Of a stretch of 42,335 nt of DNA, positions 41,455 through 42,335 are shown piece after piece. Below the pieces are notes generated by a model. That model worked only from the letters and a program-made list of their open reading frames with translations, had not been told where the DNA came from and did no database searches. Origin of the DNA: Candidatus Saccharimonadota bacterium (GTDB lineage: Bacteria; Patescibacteriota; Saccharimonadia; Saccharimonadales; Saccharimonadaceae); the NCBI GenBank assembly GCA_017514105.1, contig JAFWKY010000015.1, forward strand, positions 84,834-127,168, given 5' to 3'. Position 1 is the stretch's first letter; the number at the start of each line of letters is the position of its first letter. The position numbers were made by a program, and so were the translations under genes.

Positions 41455-41943
41455 ATGAAAAAGAAAGTTATCGTCGGAATTATCATTGCAGGCGTAGTAG
41501 CCATTGGCGCAGCCGCCACAGCCATCATCATCTCAAAAGTCAACCAAAACAACTCTGCAGAACCAAAGGATATTGCCACCATCACCATGAACGCCATTGC
41601 TGGAACACCATATTTTTGGTCATACAAAACCGAAGATAACAACGTTGTAGAATTAGTAGAAGAAAAATCAACCGCCGAAGAATCTGGGCTGGTTGGCGCT
41701 CCATATCAACTAATTTACAAATTCAAAGGTATCAACCCAGGCGAAACCAAAATAACCTATGACTACGCTAGCGTAGCAGATGGTTATATTTCCGAAAGAG
41801 TTATTTACAAAATCACCGTCGCTGAAGATCACACAACTACCGCAGAAGTCATTGACCGCGCTTATGGACTTGACCCTAGCGATGCGAGCGAGATAGAGCC
41901 GGCTCAAGAAGCCCAAGATATCGAACCAGGTATAGAAGAATAG
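41455..41943 (+). CDS. Membrane-anchored protein with chagasin-like (I42) fold
   Basis: 162 residues: an N-terminal membrane helix (~5-27), one beta domain (~38-125) and an acidic tail of EP-rich residues. The domain has TPYFWSYKTEDNNVVELV, GAPYQLIYKFKGINPGETKI and a final VIYKITVA, an arrangement like I42 cysteine-protease inhibitors, although the canonical NPTTG loop is not clear. A plain immunoglobulin-like domain is an alternative. TTAGGAGG lies ~6 nt before the ATG, and TATAAT lies further upstream near 41427. Single gene. Confidence 0.6.
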   Translation: MKKKVIVGIIIAGVVAIGAAATAIIISKVNQNNSAEPKDIATITMNAIAGTPYFWSYKTEDNNVVELVEEKSTAEESGLVGAPYQLIYKFKGINPGETKITYDYASVADGYISERVIYKITVAEDHTTTAEVIDRAYGLDPSDASEIEPAQEAQDIEPGIEE

Positions 41944-41963: not shown

Positions 41964-41994
41964 AAAAAACTACCTAGTTTTCATCTAGGTAGTT
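41964..41994 (-). terminator. Terminator after tRNA-ended structured RNA
   Basis: Stem AACTACCTAG/CTAGGTAGTT (41985-41994 with 41968-41977) followed by a T-run on the minus strand only. It therefore ends transcription from the RNA gene rather than from the 41455 gene. Confidence 0.8.
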
Positions 41995-42011: not shown

Positions 42012-42171
42012 TGGAGCCGCGAACGAGATTTGAACTCGTGACCCCATCCTTATCATGATTATCACTGACTCCCCGACAATAAATAATAAGGACATGAACA
42101 CTTAACCCTAAGAACCGCAATTGATTTCTTAGATACTAAGTGACAGGTCACGAACTCAAATGAGTCGCGGC
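42012..42171 (-). ncRNA. Novel ~160-nt structured RNA with a tRNA-like 3' end
   Basis: The ends form a perfect 7-bp acceptor (GCCGCGA at 42171-42165 with TCGCGGC at 42022-42016), with discriminator T and encoded CCA. A canonical T-arm (ACGAG-TTCAAAT-CTCGT) precedes it. No D-arm or anticodon arm fits. The interior has a 13-bp hairpin (42137-42142 with 42099-42104, and 42126-42132 with 42108-42114) and a 9-bp hairpin (42083-42091 with 42048-42056). The two ends also form a 26-28-nt imperfect inverted repeat that would compete with the T-arm. It has its own promoter and terminator. A tmRNA is the nearest class, but it is too short, has no tag frame and has no G3-U70 pair. Confidence 0.75.
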
Positions 42172-42183
42172 TTCCTACAATCT

Positions 42184-42189
42184 ATTATA
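42184..42189 (-). promoter_or_regulatory. -10 box of structured RNA gene
   Basis: TATAAT on the minus strand. The predicted start at ~42176-42177 is 5-6 nt before the acceptor stem. No clear -35 box. Confidence 0.65.
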
Positions 42190-42230
42190 ACATATTCGGA
42201 TAGATTAAGCCGGATGACCATACGCTCCGT

Positions 42231-42262
42231 AAAAAAAGCCTCTCCGAAAAACGAGAGGCTTG
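42231..42262 (-). terminator. Terminator of the gene entering from the right
   Basis: Stem AAGCCTCTC/GAGAGGCTT with a short loop and a run of seven T on the minus strand, directly after the partial CDS. Confidence 0.85.
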
Positions 42263-42266
42263 AGAA

Positions 42267-42335
42267 TTAACCTTTGACTCCGAAAAGGCGCTGCCAATCA
42301 AATTCGGAATCGTCAAGGTATGAGTTAGGGACGTA
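42267..42335 (-). CDS. C-terminal end of an unidentified protein (partial)
   Basis: Twenty-two residues and a TAA, reading YVPNSYLDDSEFDWQRLFGV then KG. The frame is open to the right edge and is followed closely by a terminator, which supports a real gene end. It is too short to identify. Confidence 0.6.
   Translation of the reverse strand, partial: YVPNSYLDDSEFDWQRLFGVKG

Follow-up and report, generated by a model that had tools for sequence, protein, structure and literature searches.

A hairpin-rich element end joined to a displaced tRNA-Thr(GGT) half in gut Saccharibacteria: a probable attR junction with a candidate promoter exchange

A locus that resembles an RNA with a tRNA-like tail, located near a contig end of a Saccharibacterial genome, is very probably (roughly nine chances in ten) the attR junction of an integrative element with a XerC/D-like tyrosine integrase, with crossover in the anticodon loop of a tRNA-Thr(GGT) gene. 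As judged by genome comparison, the insertion split the host tRNA gene, leaving its 3′ half on the far side and an intact tRNA-Thr(GGT) on the other, and the right end of the element carries an outward-facing extended −10 motif together with a stretch rich in hairpins, part of which is the tRNA end copied in inverted orientation. An earlier note on this DNA had described a free-standing RNA with a tRNA-like end; the 3′-terminal 46 nt are instead the displaced half of the host tRNA gene. The window, meaning the whole 42,335-nt stretch of DNA that was analysed, is the end of contig C10 of genome G000, and its features at the junction are as follows.

42267–42335, minus strand: 3′ end of an element cargo gene (product ending in YVPNSYLDDSEFDWQRLFGVKG before the stop), cut by the contig end
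42184–42192, minus strand: candidate extended −10 promoter TGTTATAAT, read from 42192 to 42184 and directed outward from the element; found at the equivalent position in all six end types
42058–42192, minus strand: hairpin-rich right end of the type A integrative element; 88% identical in G005 and also present at L036, L059, L061, L065, L096 and L004
42146–42175, minus strand: inverted and diverged copy of the T-arm and acceptor of tRNA-Thr, forming the 5′ arm of a long stem; complementary to the half (p < 0.002 against shuffled sequences)
42099–42142, minus strand: internal hairpin 1 (CACTTAG...TTAAGTG), predicted by folding, with an invariant loop and nearly invariant sequence
42048–42091, minus strand: predicted core hairpin, in which element-borne CCTTATTAT pairs with ATGATAAGG at the crossover (core complement p = 0.004 for the window copy)
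42048–42057, minus strand: crossover region, CATGATAAGG here and CCATGGTAAGG in most relatives; the boundary between element and host tRNA in all halves
42012–42057, minus strand: displaced 3′ half of the host tRNA-Thr(GGT), from anticodon loop to CCA (CATGATAAGG...GGCTCCA)
41964–41994 (approximately), minus strand: intrinsic terminator in the host flank, 3′ of the tRNA half, recognized from sequence
41455–41943, plus strand: host gene of 162 aa adjoining the tRNA locus

Parent gene and empty site

The features that had suggested an RNA are all present on the minus strand (window 42176–42012): a perfect 7-bp acceptor (GCCGCGA/TCGCGGC), a canonical T-arm (ACGAG-TTCAAAT-CTCGT) followed by T and CCA with its end at 42012, two internal hairpins, an extended −10 and a terminator. 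When the window's own genome was searched, the last 47 nt proved 96% identical to part of an intact tRNA-Thr(GGT) on a separate contig (G000:C12:79-154). The tail had previously been likened to the Thr tRNA of the window, but the tRNA-Thr carried there has the anticodon TGT and differs from this parent.

An empty site occurs in the congener G347 (contig C7), which has a single intact tRNA-Thr(GGT). A homologue of the 162-aa gene lies within about 50 nt directly 3′ of this tRNA and is followed, as in the window, by a gene reading as DNA polymerase IV, while the tRNA is preceded by a TPR-like gene whose homologue adjoins the intact tRNA on C12, as read from sequence. G347 joins the C12-side and window-side genes around one tRNA-Thr, and an insertion into tRNA-Thr(GGT) therefore separated C12 from C10. 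The sequence signs of a genomic island that were observed here are a displaced tRNA fragment, an intact copy beside the expected host gene (here on the other contig) and an uninterrupted target in a relative. Counted against this picture are the 75% completeness of the window genome, whose assembly lacks the element between C12 and C10, and the atypical left-end sequence that follows the tRNA on C12, which differs from other type A left ends and, when compared as a candidate known left end, gave a single 57-nt match, in G261. Of the possibilities raised in the earlier note, the one in which an element has rearranged a tRNA gene is borne out by the parent gene on C12, the empty site in G347 and the recurrence of the element end described below.

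It is scarcely credible that the locus represents a reduced tmRNA, an intron-split tRNA or another RNA of a known family. Perfect acceptor pairing and a T-arm do flank a long insert, and a tRNA acceptor and T-arm end on a non-tRNA body is also what tmRNA (RF00023) possesses; against this, ARAGORN called neither a tRNA nor a tmRNA at the locus, and no Rfam family, tmRNA included, matched it at the gathering threshold. The locus is moreover too short for a tmRNA, and its 3′ part is a displaced host tRNA fragment with an intact copy on C12. The remark in the note that the locus does not fit tmRNA thus holds, and its proposal of a reduced tmRNA is unsupported, the tRNA-like end being explained by the host tRNA. 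ARAGORN and Rfam yielded ordinary tRNAs and no other RNAs, and in the window's own genome (75% complete) matches to tmRNA were found below the cut-off only. An intron-containing tRNA was considered and rejected, as the locus is without a D-arm or the 5′ anticodon strand and its upstream part is element sequence that includes the inverted tRNA copy.

Element ends across the genus

A homologue search, one of the checks named in the earlier note, found the module end again in genomes of the same genus. About 120 nt 5′ of the half recur in these Saccharibacteria, which are mostly from goat and roe deer gut, and each recurrence is joined to its own host's tRNA-Thr 3′ half. Where assembled, the module lies behind an integrase gene, as in G032, L061, L062 and others. 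In G032 the gene immediately before it encodes a tyrosine recombinase (Phage_integrase, E = 3e-32), and at L061 and L062 a gene for a Fic-like protein stands between integrase and module, with a protein of ~116 aa encoded 5′ of the integrase at L061. A host tRNA-Tyr follows the half at L036, L061 and L075. The type A integrase was not found in the window genome, which is 75% complete. A scan of IMG/VR for an exact stretch of the module returned none, and an order-wide DNA search gave nothing convincing beyond the genus, its weak matches being at the chance level for about 300 genomes.

Extra 3′ halves of tRNA-Thr(GGT) with the identical boundary were found in many of the 174 genomes of the genus, and at least six distinct upstream sequences adjoin them: type A, to which the window belongs, type B (L005, L075 and L100), type C (L006, L022, L134, L142, L163 and L178) and the single cases L127, L118 and L128. 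All six types have a common order, consisting of an integrase stop, usually a terminator, an extended −10, a hairpin-rich stretch of ~100–190 nt, CATGG and the tRNA half. In tRNA-Thr elements with the integrase as last gene, the −10 sits 51–79 nt 3′ of the integrase stop; the TGNTATAAT motif has a background density of 0.2–0.3 per kb per strand.

Left ends add a further feature. In G331, G001, G389 and G032, a second tRNA-Thr(GGT), this one complete, lies 3′ of the host's tRNA-Thr 5′ half with other sequence in between, and a tRNA-Tyr comes after it in G032 and G389. The search found no further intact tRNA-Thr(GGT) in these four genomes, whose assemblies are gapped. The one attP-like junction seen is at L182, where an integrase end is joined straight to a left end of the tRNA-carrying kind, a junction that could be expected of attP or of tandem copies.

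Several other observations were made at these and related loci. Window positions 42183–42335 are 99% identical to the element interiors of G005 and G335, as against 88% for the adjacent module (G005), and the window copy meets the module at TATGTTATAATA, which is common to both sequences; recent transfer, an internal deletion at TATGTTATAATA or an assembly join at the contig end are possible sources of this step. At L062:298-345, a type A end is joined at the palindromic CCATGG to a tRNA-Thr 5′ half in reverse, where an assembly error is possible, and at L135 an inverted tRNA 5′ half lies near a 3′ half. Both reversed joins suggest inversion at the palindromic CCATGG core, whose symmetry would permit the reverse joining in L062. 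A non-coding segment that is conserved and contains both a GCTCCGGCTCA...GAGCCGGAAC hairpin and a very small ORF (ATGCATATTGAAGTAGAATAG) was seen at L194 and L195 (G331:C16 and G001:C1) and at L032:2440-2680; it is positioned beyond the element-borne tRNA-Thr or, in G005, beyond the intact tRNA-Thr, and is perhaps a regulatory leader of the element. More distant integrase relatives adjoin genes, or halves of genes, for other tRNAs (Ala, Gly and Pro, and Thr in reverse) at L179, L180, L183, L184, L186 and L187, several of these loci having a promoter-like motif 3′ of the integrase stop. At L069, L073 and L078 (G415, G381 and G380), an intact tRNA-Thr(GGT) is separated from a second 3′ half by a mini-insertion of ~40 nt that contains a hairpin (e.g., CATCCTTTCCGC...GCGGTAAGGATG); these insertions are possibly non-autonomous relatives. 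Finally, L013 and L148 contain tandem degenerate tRNA-Thr copies with a small hairpin in place of the anticodon loop.

Fold, strand bias and possible roles of the module

The minus strand of the window module has a predicted fold of −67.1 kcal/mol (z = −7.4 versus dinucleotide shuffles), and this minimum-free-energy structure is a long stem joining both ends of the module; a fold forced to keep the acceptor and T-arm reaches −57.9 kcal/mol, ~9 kcal/mol worse. The 26–28 nt of complementarity between the two ends, reported earlier as a property of one RNA, is present, with the difference that the arm is the element's and the tRNA-like end the host gene's; the arm is a copy of the tRNA half, inverted and diverged, and L127 shows signs of a similar one. 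The arm is stable across hosts and shows no co-evolution with the host T-arm. It ignores T-arm differences among hosts, its upkeep for pairing with the host half is therefore unlikely, and it is probably not maintained for that purpose. Likewise, the internal hairpins exist as described and belong to the mobile element, not to the design of a tRNA-like RNA.

Full modules have fold z-scores from −3.6 to −9.6, to which the tRNA half contributes part. When the element part and core are compared, the promoter strand outfolds its complement in 17 of 18 modules, a set that includes many close relatives and represents about six independent types; the window copy is the lone exception, by a small margin. 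An 8-bp hairpin of type C retains all of its pairs across five variable positions (G–U changes and one A–U to G–C). Covariation in the internal stems, which the earlier note had looked to, leaves the type A hairpins unsupported: there is too little variation within this type, and the substitutions within the main internal hairpin disrupt pairs and do not compensate. Covariation in the T-stem was rejected as evidence for RNA, its changes coming from each host's functional tRNA-Thr. In each end type the element also carries, 5′ of the crossover, a sequence complementary to the core ATGGTAAGG (p between 0.004 and 0.18 for the single cases), and in L118 about 14 bp of pairing extend across the core.

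The favored role for this arrangement, although it falls somewhat short of even odds, is an exchange of promoters between the element and the host tRNA locus. In the excised circle, the right-end promoter would read across attP into the left end and, in several relatives, would thereby read the complete tRNA-Thr (and tRNA-Tyr) that the left end carries. Following integration, the host tRNA promoter would drive the element-borne tRNAs, and the element promoter would drive genes formerly 3′ of the host tRNA, such as tRNA-Tyr. Integration would then amount to a promoter swap in which the tRNA locus stays expressed, and the hairpins would serve as a leader, as part of the att site or as both, with the stray tRNA end buried in the long stem. 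In the window, the downstream gene is convergent, and the outward promoter is therefore without an obvious target there. Production of a transcribed structured RNA is possible, given that promoter, hairpins and terminator are present and that the architecture recurs; the structured end may function as an RNA, as att DNA folded in single-stranded form or simply as a leader.

The module could also be an ordinary att arm region, in which proteins bind the hairpins as inverted repeats in double-stranded DNA and the promoter simply belongs to read-out of the element, although this is somewhat unlikely. Inverted arm and core sites are common among tyrosine integrases, and the upstream copies do resemble the core, but this explanation predicts equal folding of both strands, whereas a one-strand bias was observed, and the G–U substitutions of type C fit single-strand folding better. 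Integron attC sites and the CTX-phage attP(+) are precedents in which one strand folds into the recombination site. The modules resemble these systems (see PMC4792948 for context) in their inverted core copies, their potential one-strand duplex site and their structural strand bias, and differ in the tRNA-gene target and the XerC/D-like integrase, single-strand recombination being a candidate here. It is tempting to suggest that the hairpin-rich end works as single-stranded DNA, with one folded strand as the recombination site, perhaps after single-strand uptake, and the inverted core copy in each end type, the better folding of the promoter strand, the pairing in L118 and the reverse joining in L062 would all agree with this. 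Such a role is nonetheless unlikely: the p-values of the core complements are modest singly, a double-stranded tRNA site with a canonical integrase suffices for the junctions, the conserved promoter would be unneeded, and the fold evidence is equal for RNA and single-stranded DNA.

The odds are similarly poor for a dedicated non-coding RNA of the element, acting as a regulator, decoy or sink and taking its 3′ end from the host tRNA. The module's own promoter and terminator, the z-scores of the full modules and the preserved type C pairs, one of them through a compensatory change, speak in its favor, yet the 5′ arm does not change with the host T-arm and type A offers little covariation. Furthermore, the 3′ end is host sequence that varies with each host's tRNA-Thr, and the dedicated tRNA-like decoy or regulator of the earlier note finds no support as proposed, this end being a fragment of a host gene.

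Relation to known islands and biological meaning

Splitting and restoration of a tRNA gene, in which the crossover is centred on the anticodon and a 3′ fragment is displaced, is already known from the Islander-type islands (PMC4383910). Those tyrosine-integrase islands likewise split their target, with an intact copy on one side and the 3′ fragment on the other, cross over in the anticodon loop and carry the integrase by the junction. Unlike them, the elements described here have an outward promoter and a strand-biased hairpin module with an inverted copy of the tRNA end, and several relatives bring a whole tRNA-Thr (and tRNA-Tyr) and not just a 3′ fragment. Tycheposons, in the available part of their treatment in PMC10872708, are also cargo islands bordered by a tRNA gene and equipped with a XerD-like tyrosine recombinase; a structured module spanning the att site, present here, is not among the features described in that part. 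Literature on Saccharibacterial islands, tycheposons and tRNA-replacing elements yielded nothing matching in the papers that were searchable, a faint indication of novelty for the combination of an outward promoter and a strand-biased fold, for the inverted copy of the tRNA and for the complete tRNAs brought in as replacements.

Taken as a whole, and only tentatively, these ends may define a Saccharibacterial element family that has a transcribed structured module across its att site and exchanges promoters with the tRNA locus, several of whose members replace the host's only intact tRNA-Thr(GGT), and whose fold may be a single-stranded recombination site. The junction itself puts a hot spot for integration in the place of a false class of tRNA-like RNA, and its hosts, the Saccharibacteria of the gut, are ultra-small epibionts with few descriptions of mobile elements so far. 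How an island may keep a split tRNA operon expressed is an intriguing question, raised by elements that end in a conserved outward promoter with a strand-biased fold and supply the one intact tRNA-Thr(GGT) found in a genome.
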